Assembly (NCBI GenBank): GCA_937120535.1 | Contig: CAKZJX010000120.1 | Location: forward strand, 1-64,000 | Source of the DNA: an uncultured Anaerolineae bacterium | GTDB lineage: Bacteria > Chloroflexota > Anaerolineae > Anaerolineales > Villigracilaceae | DNA length: 64,000 bases | Direction: 5' to 3' | Shown: piece by piece, positions 16,503-34,617 of the stretch | Layout: each line of letters starts with the position of its first letter | Numbering within the stretch: position 1 is the first letter of the stretch | Notes under the pieces: model-generated | What the model saw: the letters and a program-made list of their open reading frames with translations, nothing else | Told to the model about the DNA's origin: nothing | Database searches by the model: none | Made by a program: the position numbers and the translations under genes

Positions 16503-17288
16503 TTAGCGAACGCGACGTTTCCACTCTTCTTTAAGTTGCAGTTCCTGGGGACTGACACCAGAATCAAGTGCTAGAAGGTCAACCAACAGGCGATTGAATT
16601 TTGCCGTCTCATCCAGCATGGGGAAATGGCCAGAACCGTCGAGAATGATCACGTGCATCATGTGCGATAAGGCGGCCAGACGCTCCATTGACGGCGGTGG
16701 AACGGCAGGGTCGTTCTGCCCATATACGAACAGGCAAGGGATGTAGGTTTGCCGTACAGCGCCGAACAGGTTGTTGGCTTGTAAATCGTCAATCGACGTG
16801 GAAATGGCTCGAGGGTCGGCCTTCCCAGCGTCTGACAGGGCCAAGGTGGCTTCGGGAGTACGGCCCAACCAAGTCACTAGTTCAAGAGGCGAAGCGCTTC
16901 GTAAGCGGGTGTTCAACGCTTCATGGTCGAGAGGACAGTTTACGGCCATGATGCGGTCCACGCTTTCTGGCCAGCGACGAGCCAGGCTGAGCATCACCAG
17001 AGCACCCAAGCCGTGGCCGACGGCGGCGATTTTGCCGATCCCCATTTTGTCCATGAAGGCACGCACCATGAAAGCCTGCTGATCCAGGCTGTAGGCTTGA
17101 GGGTTATGGGCGGTTTCACCGAATCCCCAGAGATCGATGGCGTAGGCGCGATAGGAAGTGGACACTACCTGCATGCTGGGGATCCAATATTTCCAGGAAC
17201 CTATCCAGCCGTGCAGGAAGAAGACCGGGCGTCCCTTGCCCAGCACTTCATAGTGCACAATTGCGCCATCGAGGAAGACTACGCTCAT
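16503..17288 (-). CDS. alpha/beta-hydrolase fold protein lacking the nucleophilic serine
   Basis: A 261-residue alpha/beta-hydrolase with oxyanion motif HGW at 26-28, acid region YGQNDP and catalytic His in GSGHFPML. The nucleophile elbow reads GHGLG (91-95) instead of GHSLG. The codon is GGC, so Gly93 replaces the catalytic Ser and the protein is probably inactive as a hydrolase. It resembles the intact hydrolase at 29086-29925 (shared VHYEV.G.GRPV..LHGW.GSW), so the two are likely paralogues. It is the last gene of the long signalling run, eight bases after a receiver-only regulator. A ligand-binding or scaffold role, comparable to RsbQ-like or KAI2-like regulators, is inference. Confidence 0.9.
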   Translation of the reverse strand: MSVVFLDGAIVHYEVLGKGRPVFFLHGWIGSWKYWIPSMQVVSTSYRAYAIDLWGFGETAHNPQAYSLDQQAFMVRAFMDKMGIGKIAAVGHGLGALVMLSLARRWPESVDRIMAVNCPLDHEALNTRLRSASPLELVTWLGRTPEATLALSDAGKADPRAISTSIDDLQANNLFGAVRQTYIPCLFVYGQNDPAVPPPSMERLAALSHMMHVIILDGSGHFPMLDETAKFNRLLVDLLALDSGVSPQELQLKEEWKRRVR

Positions 17289-17296
17289 AGTCCAGT

Positions 17297-17671
17297 CTAT
17301 TTGCCGAAACGCGCTAGAATTTCGCGCACGCGTTCGGTCAGTTGATCCGGCGCAAATGGTTTAAGCAGGTATTCCTCTGCGCCGGCCTCTAAACCAGCTT
17401 TGATCTCACTCTCCTGTCCTTTTGCCGAAAGGAAGACAACCGGAACATCCTTGAACTTGGGATTCGACTTGATGGCCCGGCAGGCATCATAGCCGGTCAT
17501 GCGCGGCATGCGCACGTCCAGCAGGATCAGGTCTGGATTTTGGAGCGCGGTCATCTGAACCGCCTCTTCACCATTTGTAGCAACGGCCACCTCGTAACCA
17601 GCAAATCGCAGGGTAAATGCAACCAGCTCACGGATATCGGGTTCGTCTTCAGCGATGAGAATCTTTGCCAT
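17297..17671 (-). CDS. receiver-domain-only response regulator
   Basis: A 124-residue CheY-like receiver without an output domain. The acidic pocket is at E8-D9-E10, the phosphoacceptor is D52 in ILLDVRMP, and the conserved Lys is K104 in LLKPF. The frame is open upstream, but the start is the ATG at 17671, which overlaps the 3' end of the giant kinase by 23 nt. It is the obvious phosphorylation partner of that kinase. Lacking an output domain, it must act by protein contact. Confidence 0.94.
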   Translation of the reverse strand: MAKILIAEDEPDIRELVAFTLRFAGYEVAVATNGEEAVQMTALQNPDLILLDVRMPRMTGYDACRAIKSNPKFKDVPVVFLSAKGQESEIKAGLEAGAEEYLLKPFAPDQLTERVREILARFGK

Positions 17672-20600
17672 TCTTGCCTCGTTTAGTAGGTTCTTGGTAG
17701 ATTGGCAAGGTAAAGGAGAAGGTGCTGCCCTCGCCGGGGATACCCTTGCTCTCCATCCAAATACGGCCATTATGCATTTCAACCAATTGTTTCACGATCG
17801 GCAATCCTAAACCGGTGCCTGGCGTAGCCAACACGAACGGATGCTCGCCGCGGTAGAACCGTTCAAAGATGCGGTTTTGTTCCTCGATCGGAACACCCAC
17901 GCCGCTATCGCTCACATCCACCTGCACTTCATTATCTTGGTTAACGTGGATGCGCACTCGGATCTGACCTTCGGCCGGTGTGTAGTTATAGGCGTTGTCA
18001 ACCAGATTGCTGAGGATCTGGCGTACGCGTTCGGCATCGCCAAAGATGCGCGGCAATTCATGCGGCGCATTCAAAGAGATGGCCATCGGTTTGTTGTCTT
18101 CTTGGGAGCGACGCAAGATGTCGGCCAGTACGTCTTCAGCGATCTTGCGCACGTCAAGCGGTTGAGGCGAAAGGGCGACACGGCCGGCCTCGATGCGTGA
18201 GATGTCCAGTAAGTCGTTCACCAAAATGTTGAGACGTTCGGTGTTGTTCTTGATGATCTGAAGGAAATGAGTTTGGTTTTCGTTAAGCGGGCCGGCTGCG
18301 CCCATCAGCAGGATGTCGGCATAGCCGCGAATCGAGGTCATCGGGGTGCGTAACTCATGACTGACCGTAGCCACGAATTCTGACTTCAGCCGATCCACTT
18401 CGACCTCGTGGGTGATATCGCGGAAGATGGACACCGTACCCAGGAAATCGTTTTGCAACATGACCGGCGCCAGGTGGACTTGCACGATGCGCTTGTCTTC
18501 CAGTTCGATCTGTTCGGCGTAGGTATCCCCAGGTCGATAAGAAGCGGGATTCTCTGACCAGCGGCGAATGGTTTGCATCCAGGTCGCCGCAGCTCGACCA
18601 AACAGACCGATAAAGTCTTCCAGCGACTTGTCCAGCACCTGCTCGGCCGAGAGATGGAGGATGCGCTCGGCCGACTTGTTCAGGAAGGTGACATTGTTGT
18701 CGGCATCAGTAACCAATACACCGTCTGCCACGGCCTCGAGAATAGCTTGGGAACGACTGGCTTCTTCTTGTTCTTTGCGCAACATGGTGCCCAAGCGTTC
18801 GGCCTGGTCGCGAATCAGTTCATAGAGATGGGCGTTGTTAATCGCCACAGCCACTTGCGCGGCGATGGCTTGCATTAGATTGAGCACTTCGGGGCTAAAG
18901 AAGCCCACTTTACGATGGAAGGCCATCAGCACACCGATCACATCTTCGCCCACCATGAGCGGCGCCACCACACAGGAGCGGTGCTCACGCGACCCGCCGA
19001 TGGGACGAACCCAGCGGGGATCCTGGTGGAGGTCTTCTACCAACACTGCCTGACGATGTTGCACTACCCAGCCGGCCAGGCCTTCGCCCACGCGCAAGGT
19101 AACCGCCCGACTTTCCTCAAAAGCCCGATATGTTAGGTAACCATAGCCAGCGCGATAATGGAGCATATTGTCGTCGGCATGGAGGAGCATGATTGTGCCT
19201 TGTTCAGCGCCGATGGCGTCGTTGAGCAGGGCCAGAGTGCGGTTCAAGGCCCGATCCAGGTCCAGGCTGGAGGAGACTTCGGTTAGGATGCGTAGCAGGG
19301 TTTCGGTGTTTTGTTGCTCGCGTTGCAGTTGGGCTGTGCGTTCGATGACGCGCTGTTCTAATTCTGCAGCCAGGCGTTGGGTTTCAGCAAACAGGCGGGC
19401 ATTTTGGAGGGCAACGATGGCCTGGTTGGCCAAGGTGCTCAGGATCTGCAGGTCCTCCTGAGTGTAAACGTTAGGTTGGTAGCTGAGGATGGCCAACAGG
19501 CCGGCGATCTCACCACCGATGGCCATCGGCACTGCCAGCACAGATGATGGGATGCCGCGTTCGCTAAAGGCAACATTGAGTTCCTTGGCTTGGTCTTTCG
19601 ACGAGATCAGCATAGGCGTTCCCTGGCCGATCACCTGTTCACGCATCTTGCTTGTCATGGTCAGGCGCTCGTTAGGCAGGCGCCGGGCACCATCTACCCG
19701 ATACACGCCCTCCAGATCGCCCTGTTCCTTATCGCGCAAGGCCAGCAAGAAACCATCCACCGGCATCAAGCGCTGAATTGCTTTATGGATGAAGACATAG
19801 ATCTCCTCGGGGTCCAGGCTAGCGTTGATCTCGCTACTCACCTGGTTAAGGATCGCCAAGCGCTCAGCGGTTTGCACAGTGGACTGGTATAGCCGAGCAT
19901 TTTCTAGGGCGATCGAGGCTTGATTGCCGATGGTGCGCGCCAGCTCCACCTCGGTAACTCCGAAGCGGGCGGGTTGGTTGCTGTGCAGCAGGATGAACGC
20001 CCACGCTTGGGAGATGCCAAGCGGTAGGATCATCAGGCTACGGGTGTCAAGGCCAAGCCAATCGAGCAGGGGATGCAGGTCATGATCCGATTGAACGTCG
20101 TCGCTGGCGTATACGCCCTGGGACTCATGTAGGCGGTCGAGCAGCGGCACGCGAGGAATGGGCTTGATGAAGGGGCGTCGAGCGCGAGGTAGGCTGAGTT
20201 TCCACAGGATCTGGCCGCGTTCCACGGTGAGCACCGAAACGCGCGTGGCGGCAAAGCCGTCCATCAGTTCCTGAGCACAGAGCTCGAGAATGCGGTCGGT
20301 GTCGAGCAGGCCGCTCAGGGCAGAGGAGAAGCGGTTGAGCAGGGCCAAGCGTTGAGAGCGTTCATCTAGTTCGGCGGCACGGCGCAGGCTCTCCTCAAAC
20401 AGGTTGGCGTTTTCTAGAGCTATGGCGGCTTGACCGGCAAAGGTAGTGGCGATCTGGATGTGTTCGTCGGTATAGAAGTTGGGCTGCTCTTTCTCTAGGG
20501 CAACCAGGCCGATGACCTCGCCCTTGGTGATCAGGGGGATGCCCATCCAGGATAGGCGCATTGGTTCAACCACGGGAAAGCGTGGGTCCTGGCGGGTATT

Positions 20601-23600
20601 TCGAATGGTGATCGGACGGCCGGCCCGGATCATTTGCTGGAAGAGATTGCTGTCAGCAATCTGAACGCGGACGCCGATCAGCTCTTGGGAATTGGGGAAG
20701 CCACGCGCAGCATATACGATAAGTTCATCTTCTTCACGCAGCCAGAGCGTGGCGGTGTTGTAGGGGAGGATGGACAGAAGTTGATCGAGCAGCGTGTCGA
20801 TCAGCTCACGACGTTGCAAGCGGGCAGTGATGGTGGTGGCAACGTCGGTCAACGCTTGAAGCTGGCTGGCGCGCTCTTGCATAGCCTGCACTAGGCGGAC
20901 GTTTTCCAACGAGAGGGCAGCCTGCTGGGCCAGGGACACAAGCAGAGCTTCGTCTTCTGCTTTGAAGGCTCCTACAGTGTTGAAGTTGTCGAGCACCAAG
21001 ACGCCCAGGCTTTGCTCGCCAGCCACGATCGGGATGGCCAGGCTAGATACCGGCACGCGACCACCCGTGACTTGACGGTAGTGCAAGAGCGCTTCGGTAT
21101 CCAGAGGATAATCGCGGGCCAAGTTGACTTCGTCCACGCGGTGCGGCCGGCCCAAGGCAAAGGCCACGCCTGGCAAGGCCTCGCCGGCTGCAAAGGTCAG
21201 CTTGAGCATTTCTTGATTGTCGGCGTAGCCGGCCACTGCGCGTGGAATCAGGCGCAGGGCTTGGCGGTCCCACAGGAGAACGAAGCCGGCGTGAGCTGCG
21301 GTGATCACCCGACGGGCGCTATCTAGCAAGGCGTGCACGATGTTGCCAAGATCGAGCCCGCTCAACTGGCGGCTGAAGTCGAGCAACAGGTTCACTTCTT
21401 GCAGGCGACGACGGGTCTCGGCCAGCAGGGAGATGTTTTGGAGAACGATGCCGGTTTGACGGGCGAGCTGATCGTAGATCTGGCGGTCCTCCTCGGTGAG
21501 GCCGGCCAGCGGTTCTGGCGAGGTGGCCAACACGCCGGCCACAACCCGATCGCCGATCTGAATCGGTAGGCCGATCACACTGCGGGCGCGCAGACTAACC
21601 AACAGAGCGGCGTCGCGCCATTCTTCGTTCTCATCCAGGTTGGGAATGACAATTGCCTGGCCGGTCTGCATCGCGGTTCGCAATGGGTTGCGTTGACCGA
21701 AGAGAGCTTCTGGATTTGTGCCTTTGGGAACGCTTCCCAGGATCTGAGTGAGACGAGGGCCATCGGGCGCTTCCTCGGCCAACAAGGCTACGGCCATGCC
21801 TAGACGGGTGATCATCTCACGGCCCAACGCCAACATCACGGAGGGAGCGTCTATCTGGGCGCTGACGGTTTCAGCGATCGCCAAGCCGGCGCGCAAGCGA
21901 TGGACGCGTCGATCGAGATCGTGAATGGCAATCGTTTGATCCAGGTCTTTGTGCAGCAGGGTGGGTAAGTCGCTTTGAGTAACGGCCAACAGGCGCTGTT
22001 GGCGCTGGAGGCCGGCGGTCAGCGATTCGATGCGGTTGAGCAATTCTTGTCGTTGGCGATGCTGCAGGATCACCAGTTCGGCCTGCGCTGCGAAGATTTC
22101 CAAGATTTCTAACGTGAGACGATCAGGGCGCAGATTGTTGCGCGGCCTGTCCACGCTGAGTAGACCCAGCGGTGCGCCTTGTGGGTCTTCCAGCAAGAAG
22201 AGCAGGAGGTCTTCCGGTTTCCAGGCGTTGCCCGACTCGGCCTCCTCTTGCTCTGCCGATAAGACCACGGTGTGCACATCGGCCGGGATGACCGGCAAGT
22301 GTTCAGAAGGGATGAAATAGGCTCGCCCAATCTTGAATTCAGGGCAGAGCAAAGTTTTCAGGCTTTTGAGCGGTTGCTTGCGAGAGAGCAGCTCTTGCAG
22401 GGTTTCGGCCGGCATGCCCATACCAGCAACCCGTTGGAGCAAATCGGTGTCCGGTTCATAAATGCTGATCAGAACGATTTGGAAGGGAGTGGCTCGCTGG
22501 ATCGCCGAAGCAATGGCCAATAAAGCCTGCTCCACAGGGTGCTGATAAGTACTAGGCGAAGCCACCTCGGCGAGCAGCGATAGCGAGGCAGCGCGCTGGC
22601 GGGCCTGTTCGGCCAGTTCGGCCTGTTGTCGAAAGCGATAGGCATTATGCAGGGCGATCGCAGCCTGGAGAGCGAGGAGATGGACGCTCTCTAACGCAAT
22701 GTCGTCGAAAACGTCTGGCTGTTGGGCATGCAATTCGATCACCCCCAGCGCCTGCCCGTGATGCAAGATCGGCACGATCAGCGCTGAACGCACGCCAGGG
22801 TGGGATGCGTCTCCCTCTTCTCCTAGGTCAGCGATGCGCTTCGGGATGCCCTCGGCCAATGCGTGTTGCGCCAGGGGGGAGAGGATGTCTGGGACTGGGC
22901 AGCCCAGGTGCGAGGTCAGGCGGGGTTCGTCGGGCGAGTCGGGGTCGAATATCAGAAGGGCGCCGCAATCGGCTCGGGTAAGCGATAGGCTCTGTTCGTA
23001 GAGGATCTCCAGTAAGCGCGCAGGCGGCAGCAACGCGTTCAGTTCACGACCGACATGGGCCACGGAGAATAAGCGGTCGAGGCGGCGGCGCAGGGTGTCG
23101 TCCGTCTGATTGCGCAGGGCGGCGCCTTCCACAGCAGCGGCCAGCAAACCGGCGGCGGTGGACAAGGTCTGCAAATCGCTTGGGCTAAAGAAGCCCGGCG
23201 TGCGACTGCCGAACATTATCTCTCCCACGCTCTTGTCGCGTGCCAGCAGCGGGACCAAGAGGGCCGACTCCACACCCAGGCTCTGGATGATGGACTGGTA
23301 GACCGGCGACACGCGTTCGTCGCTGCTGAGTTGGTCAAAGTGAAACGCCCGTTGTGAACCTGAAACGGTGGCGCGTTTTAGAGTGCGCAGATCGGTATCC
23401 AGAACCGCCAGCTTAGGAGCAATCTCTTGCGGAACACCCCATACCGACCCAAGATGAGCGCGCAGCTGGTAGGTGTGAGGGTCAATCAGATAAATGGCGG
23501 CAAAATCTGCACGCAGCAATTGTGCTAGTTCGTGCACCGAATATTGCAGCACTTCGTCGAGGGTGGCCGAGGAAGCCACCAAGCTGGCGATACGACGCAG

Positions 23601-25100
23601 GGCCTCCGAGCGTTGGTGACGTTGGCGGGCCTGCTGGATCAGTAGAGCATTGTCGATCAGGATGGCCACCTGAGCACTGATGATTTCTAACAGCCGTTTT
23701 TCATCCGGCAAGAAGGGGGCCGGCCCCAGACGATGGTTAGATGCCTGTAAATAGCCGATGAAGCGTCCGCCGGTAATCAAAGGCTGAAAGATCGTCTCGC
23801 GCAGGCTAGCCATCTGAGCGATCCCTTGTAGCCCTAGGTCTTGGATGATCGGATCGCTCGCAGCATTGTCAAGAAAGAGAGGGCTAGGGTTGCGAAGATA
23901 TTTCTCGGCCGGGCTATCGGGTGGGATAGAAGTTCGGTAGACAGGGATCACGCTAGATGGCAAGCCCTGAAAGGGGGATTTCGCCTCGAGGCGTCGCTCA
24001 GCTTCGTCGTAGAGCAGAAAACCAAGGATCTCGATGTTAGGTAAAAGTTTGGAGGTGATGCCAGTCAACCGCTCAAATAGTTCCTGGGGCTCCTGAATGG
24101 CCGTGGCTGCCTGGGCGATGCGCGCCAGACCGTCCAGCTCCTCAGCACGAGTCCGCTCAGCTTCAAAGCGTTGGGCGTTGCGCAAGGCGACGGCGGCGTG
24201 ATCGGCAATCCACTTCACGAGCTCAGCATCTTGCTCGCGCAGACCGCCGGACTGGACTTGAGCGATCTCAAGAGAGCCGATGTATTCGTCCTGGACAATC
24301 AAGGGGACGCCTAGGTAGGCCTTGAATGTCGGAAATAGTGTCTGTGGCTCAAAGAAGGATTGATCGGCCAGCAAGATTGGCTTTCGTTCGGATTTGAGAA
24401 GAGGTGCAAAGGCACTGAACTGACTGTGGCTCGTGCGCACTGCCCGTGCTGTTCCGCCGCTTTCCTCGTAACGATAGATCGTCGAAGAGGGGGAGCTTGG
24501 GTCTTCTAGCAGAATCTCCATCAAATCGGCAGCGATCAAGCGTCGCACGCTCTGGAAGACCGTCCGCAGAGTGGCCTCTAGGCTGAGTTGCGCGTGAATG
24601 GCTCGGCTGAGTTCGGCCATCAGACTGAGGAGGGCGCTGGAGCCGGCCGGAGCTTCCCCTTGCTCTGCCGACCAGAGTTCGAGAGTGCGAAGGGTGACCA
24701 GCATCACCGGGGCCGGCCCAGGCAAGCGGTAAGAAACCGCATCAGCCAGGCGCCCGTTGATCGAAAATCGTTTCTGGCCTTCTTGGGCGCAAAGTTGCAG
24801 AAACTCCTCGGAAGGGCGCACACGTCGTGAGAGGCGTTCCAGATCGGCTAGTTCCCCCTCTGCCAAGCCAAACCACTCGCGTGCGATCGGATTGATGTAT
24901 TCTATACGACCGCCAGCTCCTACAAACAGGATGGCATCATGAGAGGAGACACCGGGATAAGATTCGAAAAGCGACGCCGGCAAAGCCGACTCGAGCCACT
25001 GTTTCGGGCGCGGCAACAGACGCAGGATCATCCCGATCAGGAGCAGAGCGATTAAACCGCTCACAAGCAGATATAGCCCGAGTCCGGCCTGGCTAAACAT
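17649..25100 (-). CDS. giant multi-GAF sensor histidine kinase
   Basis: A 2483-residue membrane-anchored hybrid of sensor domains and one kinase. In order: a transmembrane helix (about 7-27), a PAS-like domain (about 50-140), and about eleven consecutive GAF-type units (about 150-2090), most ending in the repeated signature QAxIALxNAxL. A second PAS follows (about 2115-2215), then HisKA with H2248 in VSHELRTPMTS and HATPase_c (NLVDNAYNY; GTGLGLPIV) up to about 2465. No receiver is fused. AGGAG precedes the ATG. It is 20 nt downstream of the GGDEF-like regulator. The GAF ligands are unknown, and Cys/His chromophore-type residues are not obvious. The number of GAF units was judged by eye. Confidence 0.95.
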   Translation of the reverse strand: MFSQAGLGLYLLVSGLIALLLIGMILRLLPRPKQWLESALPASLFESYPGVSSHDAILFVGAGGRIEYINPIAREWFGLAEGELADLERLSRRVRPSEEFLQLCAQEGQKRFSINGRLADAVSYRLPGPAPVMLVTLRTLELWSAEQGEAPAGSSALLSLMAELSRAIHAQLSLEATLRTVFQSVRRLIAADLMEILLEDPSSPSSTIYRYEESGGTARAVRTSHSQFSAFAPLLKSERKPILLADQSFFEPQTLFPTFKAYLGVPLIVQDEYIGSLEIAQVQSGGLREQDAELVKWIADHAAVALRNAQRFEAERTRAEELDGLARIAQAATAIQEPQELFERLTGITSKLLPNIEILGFLLYDEAERRLEAKSPFQGLPSSVIPVYRTSIPPDSPAEKYLRNPSPLFLDNAASDPIIQDLGLQGIAQMASLRETIFQPLITGGRFIGYLQASNHRLGPAPFLPDEKRLLEIISAQVAILIDNALLIQQARQRHQRSEALRRIASLVASSATLDEVLQYSVHELAQLLRADFAAIYLIDPHTYQLRAHLGSVWGVPQEIAPKLAVLDTDLRTLKRATVSGSQRAFHFDQLSSDERVSPVYQSIIQSLGVESALLVPLLARDKSVGEIMFGSRTPGFFSPSDLQTLSTAAGLLAAAVEGAALRNQTDDTLRRRLDRLFSVAHVGRELNALLPPARLLEILYEQSLSLTRADCGALLIFDPDSPDEPRLTSHLGCPVPDILSPLAQHALAEGIPKRIADLGEEGDASHPGVRSALIVPILHHGQALGVIELHAQQPDVFDDIALESVHLLALQAAIALHNAYRFRQQAELAEQARQRAASLSLLAEVASPSTYQHPVEQALLAIASAIQRATPFQIVLISIYEPDTDLLQRVAGMGMPAETLQELLSRKQPLKSLKTLLCPEFKIGRAYFIPSEHLPVIPADVHTVVLSAEQEEAESGNAWKPEDLLLFLLEDPQGAPLGLLSVDRPRNNLRPDRLTLEILEIFAAQAELVILQHRQRQELLNRIESLTAGLQRQQRLLAVTQSDLPTLLHKDLDQTIAIHDLDRRVHRLRAGLAIAETVSAQIDAPSVMLALGREMITRLGMAVALLAEEAPDGPRLTQILGSVPKGTNPEALFGQRNPLRTAMQTGQAIVIPNLDENEEWRDAALLVSLRARSVIGLPIQIGDRVVAGVLATSPEPLAGLTEEDRQIYDQLARQTGIVLQNISLLAETRRRLQEVNLLLDFSRQLSGLDLGNIVHALLDSARRVITAAHAGFVLLWDRQALRLIPRAVAGYADNQEMLKLTFAAGEALPGVAFALGRPHRVDEVNLARDYPLDTEALLHYRQVTGGRVPVSSLAIPIVAGEQSLGVLVLDNFNTVGAFKAEDEALLVSLAQQAALSLENVRLVQAMQERASQLQALTDVATTITARLQRRELIDTLLDQLLSILPYNTATLWLREEDELIVYAARGFPNSQELIGVRVQIADSNLFQQMIRAGRPITIRNTRQDPRFPVVEPMRLSWMGIPLITKGEVIGLVALEKEQPNFYTDEHIQIATTFAGQAAIALENANLFEESLRRAAELDERSQRLALLNRFSSALSGLLDTDRILELCAQELMDGFAATRVSVLTVERGQILWKLSLPRARRPFIKPIPRVPLLDRLHESQGVYASDDVQSDHDLHPLLDWLGLDTRSLMILPLGISQAWAFILLHSNQPARFGVTEVELARTIGNQASIALENARLYQSTVQTAERLAILNQVSSEINASLDPEEIYVFIHKAIQRLMPVDGFLLALRDKEQGDLEGVYRVDGARRLPNERLTMTSKMREQVIGQGTPMLISSKDQAKELNVAFSERGIPSSVLAVPMAIGGEIAGLLAILSYQPNVYTQEDLQILSTLANQAIVALQNARLFAETQRLAAELEQRVIERTAQLQREQQNTETLLRILTEVSSSLDLDRALNRTLALLNDAIGAEQGTIMLLHADDNMLHYRAGYGYLTYRAFEESRAVTLRVGEGLAGWVVQHRQAVLVEDLHQDPRWVRPIGGSREHRSCVVAPLMVGEDVIGVLMAFHRKVGFFSPEVLNLMQAIAAQVAVAINNAHLYELIRDQAERLGTMLRKEQEEASRSQAILEAVADGVLVTDADNNVTFLNKSAERILHLSAEQVLDKSLEDFIGLFGRAAATWMQTIRRWSENPASYRPGDTYAEQIELEDKRIVQVHLAPVMLQNDFLGTVSIFRDITHEVEVDRLKSEFVATVSHELRTPMTSIRGYADILLMGAAGPLNENQTHFLQIIKNNTERLNILVNDLLDISRIEAGRVALSPQPLDVRKIAEDVLADILRRSQEDNKPMAISLNAPHELPRIFGDAERVRQILSNLVDNAYNYTPAEGQIRVRIHVNQDNEVQVDVSDSGVGVPIEEQNRIFERFYRGEHPFVLATPGTGLGLPIVKQLVEMHNGRIWMESKGIPGEGSTFSFTLPIYQEPTKRGKNGKDSHR

Positions 25101-25120
25101 AGCCCTATCCTAACTCCTAC

Positions 25121-26014
25121 TTATTTGGCAGCATCCATACGACGCGCCTCGGCCGCCAGCTCAGTGATCTCACGAATATCGGCAAAGGTCTGATGGCGTG
25201 GCGATACTATGCCGATCGCCAGGATCATAAATGGCACTTGGATGCTTCCCCCATCTGGCGTCGGCATTCGCATATACCCTTGTTGCCGATCCAGGAAATT
25301 GTAATGGGTCTGGATTTCTTCACTAAAGCGGGCTTTAATCCGATCGCGAAGGGTCTCGGCTGCTTCGTATTTGGTGATAATAATGAAGTTGTCACCACCC
25401 GGATGACCGATGAAATCGCTCGGCGTGCCCAATTCATCTACCACTTCGGTCAACAACATAGCAGTAAAGCGCAAGACATCATCGCCGGCCACAAAGCCAT
25501 AGACATCCCGGAAGGCTTCAAAATGATTGATGCGAATATCCAGCAAGGCCCAGTCTTGCTCGCGGATGATGCGTCGCAGTTGTTCTTCGATCAGCCGGCC
25601 GGCGGGCAATCCGGAACGAGGATCGGTTAAGCTTTCACGTTCCGAGCGCCGGATGGCACCTTGCACCCGTAACTTGAGTTCCTCGATGTCGAAAGGTTTC
25701 GTAATATAGTCATCAGCGCCCAGTTCCAGCCCTTGCAACTTATCGCTGCGTTCGTCTTTCTGGGTGAGGAAGATCACGGGAATATGGCTGGTGCGGGTAT
25801 TGGTGCGCAGAATGCGGCAAACCTCATAGCCATCGATATCGGGCAGCATGATATCCAGAACAATGAGGTGAGGCAATGCCGAACGGGTTTTCTCCAGAGC
25901 AAGTTCACCGCGCGGCGCAATGTCGACCTCATAGTCTAACCCATTGAAATAAATTTTCAGCATGTTGGCGATATCAGCATCGTCTTCGACGATCAGGAGT
26001 CGAGGTTTTCCCAT
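25121..26014 (-). CDS. response regulator with degenerate GGDEF domain
   Basis: 297 residues. The N-terminal receiver has D11/D12, phosphoacceptor D54 in IVLDIMLP and K106. The C-terminal GGDEF-type domain starts with DPRSGLPAGRLIEEQL and contains DIRINHFEAFRDVYGFVAGDDVL. The signature, however, is GGDNF (206-210), not GGDEF or GGEEF, and the preceding Arg is Pro. The catalytic Glu is therefore Asn, so cyclase activity is doubtful. A GTP- or c-di-GMP-binding role is possible. GGAGG precedes the ATG. It lies between the acyl-ACP reductase homologue (15 nt) and the giant kinase (20 nt). Confidence 0.92.
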   Translation of the reverse strand: MGKPRLLIVEDDADIANMLKIYFNGLDYEVDIAPRGELALEKTRSALPHLIVLDIMLPDIDGYEVCRILRTNTRTSHIPVIFLTQKDERSDKLQGLELGADDYITKPFDIEELKLRVQGAIRRSERESLTDPRSGLPAGRLIEEQLRRIIREQDWALLDIRINHFEAFRDVYGFVAGDDVLRFTAMLLTEVVDELGTPSDFIGHPGGDNFIIITKYEAAETLRDRIKARFSEEIQTHYNFLDRQQGYMRMPTPDGGSIQVPFMILAIGIVSPRHQTFADIREITELAAEARRMDAAK

Positions 26015-26029
26015 ACAAGCCTCCAGGAG

Positions 26030-27118
26030 CTAATGGCGCCTCTGCGTGGCTTTCCGGCGCACGGCTTCGATTTGGTCCAAAGTGATTTCTTTCTCAAAAG
26101 AACGCAGTCCACTCAAGCGGAATCCATGACGATGCGCAATGTGGGCGATCTCTTCCACACGTTCGCGCGAGATCGTTCGTCCGATAGTGTAGTCTTCAAA
26201 ACGGCCCTCCAAAGCCAACGCCATGGTTTCGGCCATACAAGCATACGCCTTGCCGGGCGGGAGACCGAAGTCAAAATGGAAATTCACTGGGCCGGGCACG
26301 TCCACGACGCCGCCATCGATCACTAATATATCATCTCTTGCTGCGGCTACCATTGCAGAAACATCGCGAGGACGCGCCACATCGCACACCACACTGCCCG
26401 GACGTAAGTGTTCAGGGTGAATGACGCTGTGGACGGCGCTGGTCACGGTCAGGATCAACTGCGCATCGGACAGAGAACGCATCTCGGTGCTGATCGTCAC
26501 CTCGCCTCGCGCCTGACCCCGAAGCCGGTCGCGCAGCTCCTCGAGCGCTTCCTGCCGACGACCGGTCAGCGTCAGGTGAGCCACCTCCCCGGCCAGCAGC
26601 TCGGCGCACACCTGGCCAATTGACCCTGTAGCCCCTACTACCGCTGCGCTGGCCTCCTGGAGAGGAATCTCCATCACCTCGGCGGCTTTCCGCAGAGCAT
26701 CCACGGCCACGGCAATGGTATACGCATTGCCGGTGGTCACCGGCACCTCCAGGTGTTCGGCGATGGTGACTCCAGCATCCCCAACGATCGAGGTATACGC
26801 CCCCAAACCCAAGATGCGTGCTCCTAGGCGTTCGGCCATGCGGCCGGTCTCGATGATCTTACGGTATACCCGCTCTTGAGGAAGGGTGAGCAGCTGGTGC
26901 GGCGTGAGTGGGCAAGCCAACAACCAGCCCCGAATTTCTTTGCCAGTCGCCTGCGAGACGATCCCTTCCACTTCAGATAGATAAACCGGCGGGAAAAACT
27001 GAGCGAAAAATTCAATTTGCCGCTCGCTCAGGATGCGCCCGAGGAAGGGGAACTTTCGCTGCACATCGCGCTTGACGTTGATCGGATGAACGATAAATGC
27101 AAACGAATCCATCACCAC
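26030..27118 (-). CDS. long-chain acyl-ACP/acyl-CoA reductase homologue (cyanobacterial AAR type)
   Basis: A 362-residue Rossmann-fold reductase resembling cyanobacterial fatty acyl-ACP reductase, which makes fatty aldehydes with NADPH. Visible family features are ALGGFTSI-like GLGAYTSIV, TTGNAYTIA, the nucleotide-binding motif VGATGSIG (161-168), VIDGGVV and YACMAETMALALEG. The Cys in the last motif, C294, matches the Cys that forms the acyl-enzyme in cyanobacterial AAR. No aldehyde decarbonylase is nearby. It overlaps the beta-helix gene by 7 nt. The start could also be the ATG two codons later. A shikimate/glutamyl-tRNA reductase-like oxidoreductase of other specificity is the main alternative. 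Confidence 0.82.
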   Translation of the reverse strand: MVMDSFAFIVHPINVKRDVQRKFPFLGRILSERQIEFFAQFFPPVYLSEVEGIVSQATGKEIRGWLLACPLTPHQLLTLPQERVYRKIIETGRMAERLGARILGLGAYTSIVGDAGVTIAEHLEVPVTTGNAYTIAVAVDALRKAAEVMEIPLQEASAAVVGATGSIGQVCAELLAGEVAHLTLTGRRQEALEELRDRLRGQARGEVTISTEMRSLSDAQLILTVTSAVHSVIHPEHLRPGSVVCDVARPRDVSAMVAAARDDILVIDGGVVDVPGPVNFHFDFGLPPGKAYACMAETMALALEGRFEDYTIGRTISRERVEEIAHIAHRHGFRLSGLRSFEKEITLDQIEAVRRKATQRRH

Positions 27119-28401
27119 GATTCTACTACAGCACTCTGAGCTTCCTCATCGCTGCGAGGATAGAGACGCCGATGCAAATGGGCGTTTGGCAGACGATGAT
27201 GATCGCTGTCCTCATAGCGGATATCGCGGTCGATGACACGGCGCTCGCCTGAAGCGAATAACACCACGTCCGACTCGATGGTGCGGGCTGGGAAGATGAT
27301 CATTCCCGAGCCGATACGGCAATTGTGCCCTACGCATCCTCCCAAGACCGGGCGGTTAGACGGGCTGAGCTGGTCGTTTCCATCTCGAGCCCGGATGGGC
27401 ACCGGAATCAGGTTGTAGTCGGTAAAGGTGGAGCCGGCACCGATGAATGTGTTTCGCCCCACCACACACATTTGTAGACAGGTGTTCTGGGCAATCATCG
27501 AGTGTTCCATCACCGTCGTCATAAACAGGGCGGCTCGAAAGGGTAGAAACGCTCCATCGCCTACCACGGAGAGCATCAGTTGAACGTCCTGCGAGATGTT
27601 GACGTTGTTGCCGATGATGCAATTCTCGATCACTGCCCCAGCGTTGATGGTGACATTATCGCCAATCGTGGTCGGACCATGGATGATGGCGCTTGGATCG
27701 ATCACGCAGTTTTTGCCGATCTTGACGAGCTCGGAGCACTCTAAAACCTGTCGTCCTTCGTAGAGCGCTTTAAACAAGATTCCCAGCTTGAAGCCCAAGT
27801 CGCGTTCTAGGCGCGTCTCAAAGCGCAGGCCGCGTGCAAACAATCCAAACACAATATCAGCAATGAAGACGTGAACCCACGAGTCGATGGCGATCAGAGC
27901 GCGGCGCGGAACCTGAAAGACCAAATCGCCGCTTTGATCGGCCATGTAGGTGGGCACATGATAGTACCCTACCTCTTTGGAGTCGAGATCGATCACTAAG
28001 GGGTCCACGTCGGCTGTCGGTCCGTTTGGGTAGTACCACAGATCGGCCAAGTAGAGGTTGCCGGCCGGGGTGTACGACGTGGAGAGCGGCAGAGCATGTT
28101 CCCGAAACGCCGGGTCCTCTGCCGAAAGAGCAGCCCGACAGGGCCGGTTGCGTTTTTGCGCGGCGGTCAGAAAGGCACGAATGTATTCGTGATCGAAGAA
28201 CAGATTGTCGCGATGAACGATCATCGGCTCCCGCAGCACAGGCAGGGGTTCGCGAGGCGTTAGTTCGATTTCGCGACTTACGTAGGGCGCCAAAACGTTC
28301 CGTTGCCACAACCAGAGCGGAAAGTTTTGAATCCGCAAGTCGCGAGCCAGCTCATTGAAAGGAGGAATATGATGCAGCGCAGGCAAGATCACTCGAAGCA
28401 T
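27112..28401 (-). CDS. left-handed beta-helix (hexapeptide repeat) protein
   Basis: 429 residues. The N-terminal 200 residues are not recognised (rich in aromatic residues, with NLYLADLWYYPNGPTADVDP). The middle and C-terminal part has hexapeptide repeats (about 225-385; for example IGKNCVIDPSAIIHGPTTIG) typical of acyltransferases and nucleotidyltransferase tails. A hydrophobic stretch interrupts the helix near residues 285-300. No nucleotidyltransferase signature is visible. Its coupling to the acyl-ACP reductase by a 7-nt overlap suggests a joint lipid or acyl-transfer job, but the substrate is unknown. AAAGG lies nine bases before the ATG. Confidence 0.82.
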   Translation of the reverse strand: MLRVILPALHHIPPFNELARDLRIQNFPLWLWQRNVLAPYVSREIELTPREPLPVLREPMIVHRDNLFFDHEYIRAFLTAAQKRNRPCRAALSAEDPAFREHALPLSTSYTPAGNLYLADLWYYPNGPTADVDPLVIDLDSKEVGYYHVPTYMADQSGDLVFQVPRRALIAIDSWVHVFIADIVFGLFARGLRFETRLERDLGFKLGILFKALYEGRQVLECSELVKIGKNCVIDPSAIIHGPTTIGDNVTINAGAVIENCIIGNNVNISQDVQLMLSVVGDGAFLPFRAALFMTTVMEHSMIAQNTCLQMCVVGRNTFIGAGSTFTDYNLIPVPIRARDGNDQLSPSNRPVLGGCVGHNCRIGSGMIIFPARTIESDVVLFASGERRVIDRDIRYEDSDHHRLPNAHLHRRLYPRSDEEAQSAVVESW

Positions 28402-28465
28402 GCCAAAACCTTTGTTGGCCCGAAAGAGTTCGCTCTGGGCACCCCATGGGCAAGCAAAGCGGGGG

Positions 28466-29089
28466 CTACCCTAGCGGGGTTAGATTGATCTCAATCATAC
28501 AGGCTGGATGACCCTGAGCGATACAGGCAGTTTCTTGCACATCAAATATCTTACCATTACTCAGCCAATACAGGGACTCTTGTAACAAGCCCACGGCCAA
28601 ATGACAAACCGGCCCCTCTGCCTGACGTTGCCAACACAGCGGACAGCGCTCGATGATCCACAGCAATTTTCCTTCCCTTTCTTCTAGGCGCACGCGCTGG
28701 TCGGTGTGGCTATTGAACAGTTCTGCTAGTGCTTCTCCTCCCTGGCGCAGTTTCGTCTTCAAGGGCAACAGGCGGAATGTGTTCTCAAAGACCCCCAGCT
28801 GCGCGCCATAGTGACGAATGCCATATTTGAAGGCCACACGGCCGGCGCGCAGAGCCACTCCGCGTCCGCTATGAGAGCCATAGATTTGTTCTAGAGCGTC
28901 CAACAGACGGCTCAGGGTGGAGAAGGGGAAAGCCAGTTGAGAGTCGTAGGGGGGGTAGTTGGCGATCAGGTCGGCGCAGCCGGCCCGGCTTAGCAGGGTG
29001 CGCACGTCGTTTTCTCCGATCACTTCCTCCAGAGATTCCAGGAGAATACGTCCCATGGAATTCGGATAGAAGAAGGAAGGAGGGGTCAT
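28466..29089 (-). CDS. V4R-domain protein
   Basis: A 207-residue protein with a C-terminal V4R (4-vinyl reductase) domain, a fold that binds small hydrophobic ligands. The conserved cysteines are CPLC, VCHLAVG and ACIAQGHPAC near the end. The N-terminal part resembles other V4R/heme-NO-like sensors. The frame is open far upstream, but the ATG at 29089 overlaps the stop of the hydrolase gene as ATGA (29086-29089) and is the natural coupled start. In this cluster it is a candidate receptor for a hydrophobic product of the neighbouring enzymes. That role is inference. Confidence 0.85.
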   Translation of the reverse strand: MTPPSFFYPNSMGRILLESLEEVIGENDVRTLLSRAGCADLIANYPPYDSQLAFPFSTLSRLLDALEQIYGSHSGRGVALRAGRVAFKYGIRHYGAQLGVFENTFRLLPLKTKLRQGGEALAELFNSHTDQRVRLEEREGKLLWIIERCPLCWQRQAEGPVCHLAVGLLQESLYWLSNGKIFDVQETACIAQGHPACMIEINLTPLG

Positions 29090-29925
29090 AAGGTGATGTT
29101 CTCCGGTCGAGCCGCTTGTTGCTGGAGAGGCGTGGTGCGGTGTTCGTCCAGGAAGGCCTGTAGGTGACGGCTGAAGTTGAGCGGCTCCTCCAACATCGGG
29201 AAGTGGCCGGCGTTCTCGAATCGGACGATGCGAGCATGTGGGATGCCGTTCAACAACACTTGCCATTGGCGTGGATCAACTACTTTATCCTTATCTCCAT
29301 AGATACCCATGGTGGGCGCCTTGATCTTGTGGAGTGACGAACGCAGGTCCGTGCGGCGCAAGGAGGCAATGCTCAGCAAGAACGACTCCAGCGTGGTGCG
29401 CGAAATATCGCGATCGATCATGTCGGGAAAGCGAGGGTCAGAGCAGATCACACGTGAGTAATGGTAGCGCATCCAGGCTCGGAAGACGCCCATCATATTG
29501 AAAAGGATTAGAGCATTCAGACGATATCCTGCTAACTTCAACAGATGGGCCAAGGATGAACCCACAATCGGCGATCCCACCACGATCACCTTGCTGATGC
29601 GCTCAGGATATTGGATCGCCGCCATCAAGCTCACGGTCCCCCCCATGCTATGGCCAACCAATGGCGCCCGCACGATCCCCAATTGCTCCATGAACTGTCC
29701 AACCATGCTGACGAAGTCGTGGACGGTGTAGGTATCGCGCTTTTTGCCCGATTCACCGAAGCCCCAGAAATCCAGGGCGTAGGTGCGATAGAATTTTCCC
29801 AAGTACGACATCGTATCCTGCCATAGCCCCCACGAACCTAACCAGCCATGGAGCAGAATCACAGGGCGTCCACGGCCGTATACTTCGTAATGAACAATGC
29901 CTTGATCGGTCGTAATGGAAGACAC
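29086..29925 (-). CDS. alpha/beta hydrolase
   Basis: 279 residues with a complete triad: nucleophile elbow GHSMGG near residue 100, acid in YGDKDKVVDP, His in NAGHFPMLEE, and oxyanion HGW near 26. It is similar throughout to the serine-less protein at 16503-17288, including DFWGFGE and HFPML. Substrates of this broad family include esters, lactones and haloalkanes, so specificity is open. It is translationally coupled to the V4R gene and 119 nt downstream of the GTPase gene. Confidence 0.92.
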   Translation of the reverse strand: MSSITTDQGIVHYEVYGRGRPVILLHGWLGSWGLWQDTMSYLGKFYRTYALDFWGFGESGKKRDTYTVHDFVSMVGQFMEQLGIVRAPLVGHSMGGTVSLMAAIQYPERISKVIVVGSPIVGSSLAHLLKLAGYRLNALILFNMMGVFRAWMRYHYSRVICSDPRFPDMIDRDISRTTLESFLLSIASLRRTDLRSSLHKIKAPTMGIYGDKDKVVDPRQWQVLLNGIPHARIVRFENAGHFPMLEEPLNFSRHLQAFLDEHRTTPLQQQAARPENITL

Positions 29926-30044
29926 GGCTACTGCTTCTCGACGGGAGATCGGCTACGATAGAGACGAAGGCTGTTCCGCCAACAGGAAGGGAACGGTCTT
30001 CGTATAGAAGGTCACTGAGGCTATCGAAAGATACCTCCAAGCAT

Positions 30045-30584
30045 TCATTCATCCGATTCGATTTCTGCCAAGATGCTGTAGAGGAGAGCCAACAGGACTT
30101 CTTTTACCGACTCACGATCGGTGGCCACACAGGGCAGGATTTTGGTTTTAGCGTCCAAGCGCAGCGCATGGCGCATATCCTCCACATCCCAAGCCCCTTC
30201 TTTATCTTGTTTATTAGCGGCAACGACATAGGGGGTAGGGGCATAAGCGCGAAAGGTTTCTAGAATGCTGCGGGCTTCACGGAAGGTTTCGGGACGAGTG
30301 CTGTCTACCATGACAATGAAGCCGAGCATGCCCTCTGAAAGGATCTCCCACATGAAGTCAAAGCGCTTTTGGCCGGGGGTGCCAAACAGGTAAAGCACCA
30401 GGTCTTCATCCACAGTGATCCGACCGAAGTCCATCGCCACCGTCGTCATATCCTTGATGGAACGCTCTTCGCGCGTGCTCAGTTTACGCTCCGTGGAGAC
30501 GACGTCGATCTCGCTCACCGATCGAATGAACTGGGTCTTGCCGGCATTGAAGGGGCCTGTGACCACCATCTTAACTGTTTGCAT
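30045..30584 (-). CDS. small Ras-like GTPase (MglA/Rab-like)
   Basis: A 179-residue single-domain GTPase. G1 is GPFNAGKT (10-17), switch/G3 is FGTPGQKRF and G4 is ANKQD. It belongs to the bacterial small GTPases often found beside roadblock or DUF4388 proteins, which act as switches in polarity, motility and signalling. No roadblock gene is present here. The partner is probably the DUF4388 protein directly upstream (28 nt). G3 reads TPGQ, which keeps the Gln usually needed for GTP hydrolysis. Confidence 0.92.
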   Translation of the reverse strand: MQTVKMVVTGPFNAGKTQFIRSVSEIDVVSTERKLSTREERSIKDMTTVAMDFGRITVDEDLVLYLFGTPGQKRFDFMWEILSEGMLGFIVMVDSTRPETFREARSILETFRAYAPTPYVVAANKQDKEGAWDVEDMRHALRLDAKTKILPCVATDRESVKEVLLALLYSILAEIESDE

Positions 30585-30612
30585 AAGTCCCGATTCCTTA
30601 TCTAGTGTAGAT

Positions 30613-31419
30613 TTACAATGAGCGAATACGCCCGATAAGCCGATTGACTAGAGATTTTTGTTCTTCCCGATCTTCGCTGGGGAAGGTGCGCACCGGCGTA
30701 GGCGGTTTAATACCTTCTGGGCGGACAATTTCCACCAGCCCAGCTTGCAACAAGCCGTATACGATACGGCGAATTTCTAGATCGCTCATTTTGTTGGCGG
30801 CTGCGATCTGACGGATGGTGTTCTTGGGGTTGATATACGAGACGACTCGCCACTCTTCGACGCTCAGGTTGATGTTCTTCAGAGGACGATCGGTGAACTT
30901 CAAGGCCATATCCAGGCTGGGAATCTCGTCCTGTAACTGTTCCCATTCGCGCAACTGTCGCGCTCCTTCAATGATAATGTTCTCTAGTTCAATTCGCACC
31001 GTGATGCGGTCGTCGGGGGGTAAGAGGTTTGGTTCAAATCGGAAAAAGCCCTCGACCCAGGTGAACAAACGACGGACCACATCGGTGTAGTAAGCCTGTA
31101 AGCTAGTGAGGATTTCGTCTTGTTGGATATAGCCAGCGTTGATGAGCATCAAGCCGAGTTCCTTGTCACTTACATGGCCAGCTCGTTCGATCAGAGCGCG
31201 ATATTGGTTGACGGTCAGGCGGCTGGCACGGTGCAAGATGGAAGCCAATCGATTGTCCTCGTTTCCAATTCGGGCGTAGGATAATCTGCCGTCCCGAAAC
31301 GATACATGAGCCTGTTCGTTTGGCCCATCCACCACCAGCGTGCCGGTCTTTTTGGCCAAGTTGATCAGGTTGAGCAATTGGATGACTGTGAAGTCTCGAA
31401 GGTTACCGCGTAGCGCCAT
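30613..31419 (-). CDS. DUF4388 (PATAN-type) regulatory protein
   Basis: 268 residues with an N-terminal DUF4388 domain (about 1-105; begins LRGNLRDFTVIQLLNLINLAKKTGTLVV). A winged-helix-like C-terminal part (about 175-235; IRQIAAANKMSDLEIRRIVYGLLQAGLVEIV) and a basic tail follow. DUF4388 proteins accompany small GTPases and two-component systems and probably mediate protein contacts. GAGG lies five bases before the ATG. As first gene after the promoter at 31455-31483, it opens the long signalling run. Confidence 0.88.
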   Translation of the reverse strand: MALRGNLRDFTVIQLLNLINLAKKTGTLVVDGPNEQAHVSFRDGRLSYARIGNEDNRLASILHRASRLTVNQYRALIERAGHVSDKELGLMLINAGYIQQDEILTSLQAYYTDVVRRLFTWVEGFFRFEPNLLPPDDRITVRIELENIIIEGARQLREWEQLQDEIPSLDMALKFTDRPLKNINLSVEEWRVVSYINPKNTIRQIAAANKMSDLEIRRIVYGLLQAGLVEIVRPEGIKPPTPVRTFPSEDREEQKSLVNRLIGRIRSL

Positions 31420-31454
31420 TGGGCCTCGATAAATCCCCGAGCGGGGATGCGAAA

Positions 31455-31483
31455 ATTATACATGCAAGCATAGGATGCGTCAA
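31455..31483 (-). promoter_or_regulatory. promoter of the DUF4388-GTPase-kinase run
   Basis: On the minus strand TTGACG (31478-31483) and TATAAT (31455-31460) are 17 bp apart, followed by a GC hairpin (CCCCGCTCGGGG) in the short leader. It is a strong housekeeping-type promoter and the only obvious one before the run that extends to 16503. Confidence 0.85.
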
Positions 31484-31496
31484 TTAACTGTGTTGT

Positions 31497-32672
31497 TTAT
31501 TGAGAAAGAGAGGGATTTGCCAAAGCGAGAAGGGTCTTCTCGTAGGCTACAATCACGTGTTCTAGATCAAAAGCTTGTGCCAGTTCAAGGCTCCGCCGGC
31601 GGGCGGCAAGCAGCGCATCGGCATCCGACAACAACCACCGTAAACCGGCAGCCATGCCTTTGGTATCGTCGGCGTCGTGCAGAGAGCCGTTGCCGTCCAC
31701 CAATTCCACAAAGCCGCCAGCGCGCCCGACCACCAATGCCAAGCCACAGGCTAGGGCTTGCACGCCGACCACAGGTAGCCCTTCGGAGCGAGATGGCATA
31801 AACAGAACATCGCTCTGGCGGAATTCTTCGAGTACGCGTTCAGGTGTCGCCCAACCCAGAAGACGAACCCGATCCTTCAGTTCAAGGCGTTCGATTTCGG
31901 CCCAGACGCGCTCCCTCAGGGCACCGTCGCCGAGCATCACACATTCCCAGGGCAAATCGCGCAGGGTGGCCAAGGTGCGCAGCACCTGGAGCGGATTTTT
32001 CTGCTCGACAAGCCGGCCCGCGAAGACAATCCGCCGAGGGTGATGGAGCACGATCTCCGCAGGCGCCAACGCAGCGAGAGGGACGCCGTTGGGGATAACT
32101 TGAATGGGCACCGGATAGGATTGCTGGGCTAGGTCGCGCGTGAAGCGACTGACAGCGATCACCTGGGCTGCGTTGTGCCAAATAGGCAGGGTGAATGGCT
32201 TGATCCAGCGAAACCAGCCGGCCGTCTTCTCTGGAACGCCACCGGGCACATCGCCGAGATGGGCCGTGAGAAGGTAGGGGATGCCCGTCAAACGCCAGAG
32301 CAACCAGGCCGCTGCACCGGCCGGAACGGCGAAATGCGCATGTAACACATCGGGCTTCTGTTCCCGAATCAATCTATAGCCGGCCCAGAGGGCTCCTAGC
32401 ACAAATAGGCTCATCTCTAGCAAGCTGGCTCGATAGGGTTGCTGTCGCAATGTAGGAATGCGAAGGACCTCCACTCCCTGATCCTGTTCTCGGTACGCCA
32501 AGCCTCGGAAGTGGACAGTGAGCACCGTGACGTGGTGCCCGCGTCGGGCTAAACCTCGACAGATATCGCGTGCGGCAGCACCTCCCCCTCCCCCAACGGG
32601 CGGATATTCGTGGATCAAAACCAAGATGCGCAGGGATGCTCGAGACACGATTTCCTCGCTGACGAGCGGCAA
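31497..32672 (-). CDS. glycosyltransferase family 4 protein
   Basis: A 391-residue GT-B retaining glycosyltransferase. The N-terminal acceptor domain starts LRILVLIHEYPPVGGGGG. The C-terminal GT4 domain has VIPNGV, IVFAGRLVEQKNP and the donor-site region MPSRSEGLPVVGVQALACG. It probably adds a sugar (perhaps from a GDP-sugar, given gmd nearby) to a surface glycan or glycolipid. It ends 77 nt before the DUF4388 start and follows the GT2 gene by 3 nt. Confidence 0.92.
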   Translation of the reverse strand: MPLVSEEIVSRASLRILVLIHEYPPVGGGGGAAARDICRGLARRGHHVTVLTVHFRGLAYREQDQGVEVLRIPTLRQQPYRASLLEMSLFVLGALWAGYRLIREQKPDVLHAHFAVPAGAAAWLLWRLTGIPYLLTAHLGDVPGGVPEKTAGWFRWIKPFTLPIWHNAAQVIAVSRFTRDLAQQSYPVPIQVIPNGVPLAALAPAEIVLHHPRRIVFAGRLVEQKNPLQVLRTLATLRDLPWECVMLGDGALRERVWAEIERLELKDRVRLLGWATPERVLEEFRQSDVLFMPSRSEGLPVVGVQALACGLALVVGRAGGFVELVDGNGSLHDADDTKGMAAGLRWLLSDADALLAARRRSLELAQAFDLEHVIVAYEKTLLALANPSLSQ

Positions 32673-32675
32673 AAA

Positions 32676-34617
<1,942 letters not shown>

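Follow-up and report, generated by a model that had tools for sequence, protein, structure and literature searches.

Composition of the locus

The window analysed here comprises the first 64,000 nucleotides (nt) of contig CAKZJX010000120.1 (assembly GCA_937120535.1) from an uncultured Anaerolineae bacterium, whose genome is a draft of 3.1 Mb in 140 contigs. Ten genes on its minus strand, encoding among others a Ras-like small GTPase and a giant histidine kinase, lie behind one promoter (Table 1). Sequence comparison marks them as a single conserved signalling unit of Chloroflexota. An initial annotation had listed ten minus-strand genes with named domains, and all ten reading frames (31419-16503) and their domains were confirmed. 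The distances that it gave between the genes (28, 119, -4, 64, -7, 15, 20, -23 and 8 nt) are correct with the V4R start at 29089 and the RRc start at 17671. Because many relatives of the reductase align from its third residue, its ATG may lie two codons further in, and the 7-nt overlap would then shrink to 1 nt. A GGDEF-family domain on the first receiver, with its motif lost (GGDNF), and the exchange of the nucleophile Ser for Gly in the last hydrolase had not been mentioned. The labels LbH, AAR, RRg, RRc and ROB are used for the beta-helix protein, the reductase, the receiver with a degenerate GGDEF domain, the lone receiver and the roadblock protein, respectively.

Table 1. Features of the ten-gene unit, in the order of transcription.
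Feature	Position	Strand	Remark
Sigma-70-type promoter TTGACG-N17-TATAAT, unit head	31455..31483	-	11/12 match
G+C hairpin ATCCCC-GCTC-GGGGAT, 5' leader before ribosome site	31433..31448	-	
DUF4388 (PATAN) protein, 268 amino acids	30613..31419	-	Pfam PF14332, 94.7 bits
Ras-like small GTPase, MglA type	30045..30584	-	GPFNAGKT, TT, GTPGQ, NKQD
Alpha/beta hydrolase A	29086..29925	-	Ser (GHSMGG), Asp, His present
V4R protein, TRAPP/PoxR-type fold, conserved Cys cluster	28466..29089	-	PF02830 and model, alignment
LbH protein, sugar-nucleotidyltransferase-like domain and left-handed beta-helix	27112..28401	-	Profiles and model
Acyl-thioester reductase, AAR/PigE kind	26030..27118	-	NADP loop and Cys kept
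Response regulator RRg, receiver and degenerate GGDEF (GGDNF)	25121..26014	-	
Giant histidine kinase, 2483 amino acids: about ten GAF stretches, PAS, HisKA, HATPase	17649..25100	-	
Lone receiver RRc	17297..17671	-	
Hydrolase B, pseudo-hydrolase	16503..17288	-	Gly for Ser (GHGLGA), C-terminal tail KEEWKRRVR conserved

Conservation of gene order

The gene order was read in at least 80 loci, which were found with the reductase as query, so that close relatives are favoured. Two genes were counted as adjacent when the next gene lay within 1500 nt, and a count was made only where 2500 nt of sequence remained. The DUF4388 and GTPase genes were adjacent in 45/45 cases, and the GTPase and hydrolase A genes in 47/47. 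Counts were also made for V4R and LbH (30/31), LbH and the reductase (67/69), the reductase and RRg (53/69), and RRg and the kinase (55/56). The forward counts for the kinase and RRc (4/5) and for RRc and hydrolase B (2/3) are small because the loci end there. Viewed backward, the kinase precedes RRc in 43/43 and RRc precedes hydrolase B in 38/38. All ten genes stand in order on one piece in 20 of the 80 loci, and many of the others stop at a contig edge. A further sample was chosen by LbH; it consists of 18 of the 67 LbH genomes of the class, hand-picked for family spread. There, the run DUF4388-GTPase-hydrolase A lies upstream of LbH in 15 of the 18 and RRg downstream in 15, with the kinase next in 13. 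The order, whose conservation in other Chloroflexota the initial annotation had proposed as a check, is near-invariant in the 80 loci and conserved across the class.

In the upstream flank, where at least 1300 nt were readable in 53 loci, the neighbours of the window gave four matches with 24 to 35% identity. The downstream neighbours gave no match in the 7 readable loci, one of which is not at the end of the unit. Directly upstream in the window and on the same strand (31497-34614), there are two glycosyltransferase-like genes and one GDP-mannose-dehydratase-like gene, all named by eye. These glycan-type genes are not conserved neighbours.

Promoter and leader

The strong promoter that had been proposed at the head of the unit is a real match and is conserved in relatives. 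In 42 of 44 relatives, a match of 10/12 or better to TTGAC[G/T]-N17-TATAAT lies no more than 200 nt from the start of DUF4388, where shuffled sequences would give 0.95; 41 of them reach 11/12 and one 10/12. The minus strand of the window holds three 11/12 matches, and therefore the weight of the promoter comes from its conservation. For promoters of this type, the 180 nt upstream of each inner gene gave matches for the GTPase in 4/45, hydrolase A in 0/46, V4R in 0/27, LbH in 3/66, the reductase in 1/80, RRg in 1/63, the kinase junction in 0/64, RRc in 0/42 and hydrolase B in 0/33. An operator around the promoter was considered and set aside, as conservation hardly extends past both hexamers and a small number of positions in the spacer. 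A leader hairpin at least as strong as that of the window, whose own score was the threshold, was found in 12 of 26 leaders of up to 50 nt (window included), against 1.4 expected from shuffling. The hairpins vary in sequence among relatives, are similar in strength and are placed before the first ribosome site. The hairpin is a possible attenuator or mRNA stabiliser. The order is conserved, one promoter stands at the head with almost none inside, and the upstream neighbours are not conserved. The claim that the genes are one system thus stands, and the comparison supports the view that they form one transcription unit.

The GTPase and the genes associated with it

The GTPase motifs are GPFNAGKT, TTVAMDF, GTPGQ and NKQD, and their key positions are kept in at least 95% of 53 aligned sequences. 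The motif rules of MglA Groups 2-5 of Wuichet and Sogaard-Andersen, as given in excerpts of PMC4316618, are GxxxxGK[ST], a Thr before the G2 Thr, GTPGQ and [NT]KxD. The GTPase of the window carries all of them, and its NKQD places it in Groups 4-5. The DUF4388 protein scored well over the Pfam cut-off of 25 bits and is the sole DUF4388 match in the genome. We take DUF4388 to be the PATAN domain. Makarova is said to have noted PATAN genes near MglA genes in 2006. According to the same excerpts of PMC4316618, PATAN genes are 'occasionally' near members of MglA Groups 1 and 5, and 59 of 449 MglA-family members are orphans without a roadblock gene in cis. Members of Groups 2-5 typically go with a roadblock protein of the MglB type.

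A roadblock gene was found in all 57 GTPase genomes within a phylum sample of 301 genomes; 17 further GTPase genomes fall outside this sample and were presumably not searched for it. LbH occurs in 52 of the 301, and all 52 have both the GTPase and roadblock. These co-occurrence figures, as well as those for the class below, are raw counts without correction for kinship. Within one family of the window's order, G343, G351, G373 and G459 are without LbH, GTPase and roadblock, and G192 and G388 have all three.

The roadblock gene stands in cis in seven loci (L147, L170, L188, L197, L200, L203 and L210). A bare four-gene run, DUF4388-GTPase-ROB-V4R, was found in L188, L203 and L210/L248 and also inside L147, and L197 shows DUF4388-GTPase-ROB-hydrolase A-V4R. 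In three loci of one family (L248, L249 and L250, from G005, G173 and G100), the PATAN-GTPase-roadblock(-V4R) run precedes genes that resemble a thiamine-type ABC transporter by eye. The genome of the window has two roadblock genes. One of them opens a ROB-V4R-RRg cluster (L157, C23:7620-9534), the genes of which are overlapping or close. Such clusters recur in L187, L189, L193, L199, L201, L202, L204 and L209; in L095, one lies ahead of the main unit and is separated from it by a single glycosyltransferase-like gene. Among 150 listed V4R places and 150 listed roadblock places, at least 33 V4R genes adjoin a roadblock gene, 30 of them downstream, against about 0.09 expected for random places in genomes of 3.9 Mb. 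When 30 roadblock loci were read, V4R stood beside 15 and the GTPase beside 5, with both beside 3. Tandem V4R pairs, as if for heterodimers, were also seen away from the main unit (G130 C39, G148 C33, G164 C2 and G089 C10).

Fold of the V4R protein

The V4R protein matches the PF02830 profile with 37.5 bits (cut-off 31). Its sequence profile had no match in the PDB at E 0.01, and therefore a structure model was used (predicted local distance difference test, pLDDT, 95.8). The model matched TRAPPC3 of Thorarchaeota (7yh3) with Z 14.6 and 2.7 Å over 149 residues, mouse Bet3 with Z 13.1 and 3.0 Å over 150 residues, and MopR with Z 12.0 and 4.5 Å over 155 residues. H-NOX chains matched at Z ~15, tying with TRAPPC3. 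A heme sensor of the H-NOX kind was set aside, since an alignment of 28 V4R rows shows no invariant or almost invariant His. The homology of V4R with Bet3 is already stated in excerpts of PMC2253512, and those of PMC10933270 report that TRAPPC3 binds palmitate and PoxR binds phenols. The modelled fold is that of known hydrophobic-ligand binders, and ligand sensing by V4R is a possibility.

Enzymes, LbH and relay proteins

The alignment of the reductase with AAR and PigE runs along its length, and the protein belongs to the acyl-thioester reductase fold family (AAR, PigE N-terminus). Its conserved Cys is presumably the catalytic one. Against the acyl-ACP reductase profile TIGR04058, it scored 112 of 449.7 bits, and it is below both NCBIfam cut-offs. 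The initial annotation had spoken of paired hydrolases. In hydrolase A, the nucleophile Ser is present in 74 of 74 ungapped rows (75 rows). In hydrolase B, Gly or Ala replaces the Ser in 48 of 49 copies; the remaining copy (L166) keeps Ser and has Tyr at the His position by motif reading. All 49 copies are without a catalytic residue, and from these residues hydrolase B cannot be a serine hydrolase. In a tree of 27 pairs, the clade support was 0.58 for A and 1.0 for B; in a larger tree it was 0.82 and 0.75.

The LbH model (pLDDT 79) consists of a nucleotidyltransferase-like domain and a beta-helix. It matched ST0452 with Z 16.7 and a root-mean-square deviation of 8.5 Å over 280 residues, and the high deviation points to another angle between the domains. 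The structural matches also included eIF2B and GMPPA/GMPPB; eIF2B and GMPPA are regulatory proteins. The matches of the sequence profile in the PDB are confined to the beta-helix part in the listed rows, and the N-terminal domain is a model-based assignment. The G-rich loop of nucleotidyltransferases was not seen by eye in LbH. Its best NCBIfam match, TIGR03570, gave 41 of 160.8 bits, and the scores are under the cut-offs of the GlmU, LpxA and GMPP types.

RRg matches the Pfam GGDEF domain with 44.1 bits, over the cut-off. Its motif reads GGDNF in the window and varies in relatives; with GG[DE]EF lost, an active diguanylate cyclase was rejected. The kinase and receiver motifs are intact by reading. 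The C-terminus of the giant kinase (...FTLPIYQEPTKRGKNGKDSHR) is not an LPxR tail of the conservon kind.

The core of the unit within and beyond the class

Among 199 genomes of the class, LbH was found in 67 and the close reductase in 58, all of them within the 67. The close reductase was defined as unfused and at least 49% identical; paralogues of 740 amino acids and a fragment in G049 were left out. The second family in the class to which such paralogues belong (L159-L163, about 740 amino acids) combines the reductase domain with an N-terminal region of about 310 residues of no known kind and with what looks by eye like a membrane helix at the C-terminus. The close reductase was not found in nine of the 67 LbH genomes, which as drafts may be incomplete. 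Four of the nine were read (G192, G002, G133 and G049), and the rest of the order is kept in all four. G058, also among the nine, has an LbH match of only 29%.

In seven loci from other classes (L211-L217), LbH, RRg and the giant kinase are together in 7/7. Where these loci were read past the kinase, a dead hydrolase was found in 6/6 (five genomes and L214), with Gly for the nucleophile and a KEEW(K/R)RRV tail, and in two of them RRc lies between the kinase and the hydrolase. Five of the dead hydrolases form one clade in the tree, nearer to hydrolase B than to A. Two of the scanned kinases have 6 to 9 GAF stretches. V4R precedes LbH in two of the seven loci, both of one family. The LbH loci of these seven genomes, which were not searched whole, showed neither the reductase nor a live hydrolase A. 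Hydrolase A was seen in one locus of another class (L147), and the reductase layer in the window's class only.

Proposed function and alternatives

The genes are read from sequence; the ligands, the phosphotransfer, the GTPase partners and every other arrow in what follows are our guesses. The best reading, to which we give a slightly better than even chance, is a small-GTPase signalling unit in which an MglA-type switch is set by V4R and roadblock and by the giant GAF kinase. The GTPase would be the output switch, with the PATAN protein as its partner or effector. V4R, through its ligand pocket, and the roadblock protein would set the nucleotide state of the GTPase; in the window's genome, the roadblock gene lies away from the unit, in the ROB-V4R-RRg cluster, and RRg may work with V4R. 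The multi-GAF kinase would integrate several cues, phosphorylate RRg and RRc and thereby feed the switch. Hydrolase B, which does not cut, could be a ligand receptor or an adaptor of the kinase, and LbH a regulatory nucleotidyltransferase-like partner. The reductase and hydrolase A may tune a pool of acyl compounds or aldehydes to which V4R and hydrolase B respond.

Several observations weigh against the unity of the set or against this mechanism. V4R and the reductase are not universal: among 49 loci with a readable gene after hydrolase A, this gene is V4R in 30, while V4R is missing from 19, and in the backward view V4R stands before LbH in 28/58 and LbH before AAR in 61/70. One genome (G055) has LbH without the surrounding set, G107 is without the upstream half and G130 has the set on two contigs. 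L089 and L105 have no promoter match before DUF4388, and the inner matches before the GTPase gene reach 10/12. Mirror-tree correlations, not corrected for species kinship, range from 0.30 to 0.94, with V4R the lowest. The roadblock gene is not in cis in the window and sits on another contig, and 13 of the 30 roadblock loci have neither V4R nor the GTPase beside them. Four genomes of other classes were checked for the place of PATAN-GTPase, and in all four it is separate from LbH-RRg-kinase.

A bacterial TRAPP-like module is a rather unlikely alternative. Here, V4R and roadblock would be a ligand-gated regulator, perhaps an exchange factor, of the Ras-like GTPase, and the reductase and hydrolase A would supply an acyl ligand; this ligand is proposed by analogy, as TRAPPC3 holds palmitate. 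The initial annotation had offered the idea, with the chemistry at the centre, that the reductase and hydrolases make or destroy a signal of the long-chain aldehyde or acyl kind, which would be sensed by V4R and GAF domains and passed on by the relay. The kept NADP loop and Cys of the reductase, the kept triad of hydrolase A, the likeness of V4R to palmitate- and phenol-binding proteins, and the fact that 58/58 class genomes with the close reductase are LbH genomes agree with it. The sensing part stands as a possibility, from the V4R fold and from a dead hydrolase kept across classes, as expected of a binder. A core role of the enzymes as signal makers is not supported, however: the nine LbH genomes without the close reductase, with the order kept in the four read, the seven other-class loci without the reductase or a live hydrolase A, and the dead hydrolase B all argue against it, and we regard this account as improbable.

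No more probable is a metabolic operon, in which LbH, the reductase and hydrolase A make an envelope lipid or glycolipid and the signalling genes merely regulate it. LbH has the architecture of nucleotidyltransferases/acyltransferases, and glycan-type genes lie upstream in the window, but these genes are not conserved neighbours, the G-rich loop was not seen, and LbH in other classes sits with a receiver, a kinase and a dead hydrolase rather than with enzymes. Control of polarity or type IV pili, as by MglA/PATAN regulators elsewhere, is the least probable and in our view very unlikely. Although pili are a target of PATAN regulators in cyanobacteria (PMC7690835, excerpts), a PilT-family match was found in 14 of 199 class genomes (5/67 with LbH and 9/132 others) and none in the genome of the window. 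Type IV pilus retraction was therefore rejected as the output; another surface machine is possible.

Comparison with known systems

The unit resembles MglA/MglB of Groups 2-5 (excerpts of PMC4316618) in GTPGQ, TT and [NT]KxD, in a roadblock gene in the same genomes and in the PATAN gene that is occasionally near. It differs in that V4R, TRAPP and Bet3 do not occur in the main text of that paper, and where the paper treats gene neighbours, it mentions neither LbH nor a dead hydrolase nor a giant GAF kinase. The actinobacterial conservon (CvnA-D) likewise joins a histidine kinase with a small GTPase and roadblock, the latter here in trans. Its kinase bears an LPxR tail motif (PMC4316618, excerpts), whereas here a giant multi-GAF kinase without this tail is found with two receivers, PATAN and V4R. 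A gene of the CvnC type was not noticed, although no search aimed at CvnC was made.

The TRAPP complex consists of Bet3/TRAPPC3 and longin subunits and is a guanine nucleotide exchange factor for Rab. V4R shares the TRAPPC3 fold, and in relatives its gene has those of a roadblock protein and a small GTPase as neighbours. The likeness is one of fold and gene context; the GTPase here is of the bacterial MglA type and the partner a roadblock protein, the only such proteins sought. GID1, D14/KAI2 and RsbQ are hydrolase-fold receptors, and GID1 has lost a catalytic residue. They are likened to hydrolase B by description only, as alpha/beta hydrolase-fold proteins tied to signalling genes; in hydrolase B, it is the nucleophile that is missing, and a giant GAF kinase would be its partner. 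The reductase shares the fold family, NADP loop and Cys with AAR and the PigE reductase domain, but it has no fused aminotransferase and, as said, scores under the profile cut-offs. LbH has the nucleotidyltransferase-like and beta-helix architecture of GlmU, GMPPB and eIF2B gamma/epsilon, but it is 12 to 17% identical in the best rows and its phosphate loop is not recognisable.

A paper on nitrite reductase lists part of the locus of Anaerolinea thermolimosa in an appendix, as consecutive genes for DUF4388, a GTPase, a hydrolase and a glmU-like protein (PMC8756737, excerpt), and no published account of the ten-gene unit was found in literature searches on its domains and Chloroflexi. The unit is a variant of MglA-type signalling loci and is new by the literature searched. 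To our knowledge, prokaryotic small GTPases are mostly without known partners, and the co-located genes point to likely partners of one of them; the minimal form is PATAN, GTPase, roadblock and V4R. Should V4R and roadblock prove to regulate the GTPase, bacteria would possess a counterpart of the TRAPP-Rab arrangement. If the TRAPP-like module exists, they would have the core of a eukaryotic Rab regulator in working form. Hydrolase B, of which all copies read are dead in whichever class they occur and always follow the giant kinase, makes a clean test case for the change of a hydrolase into a receptor.

All but one of the relatives recovered by the reductase query bear titles such as Anaerolineae or Chloroflexi. 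The exception, contig L101, has the title Pleurocapsa minor and a reductase with 64% identity to that of the window; it is probably a mis-sorted Chloroflexota contig.

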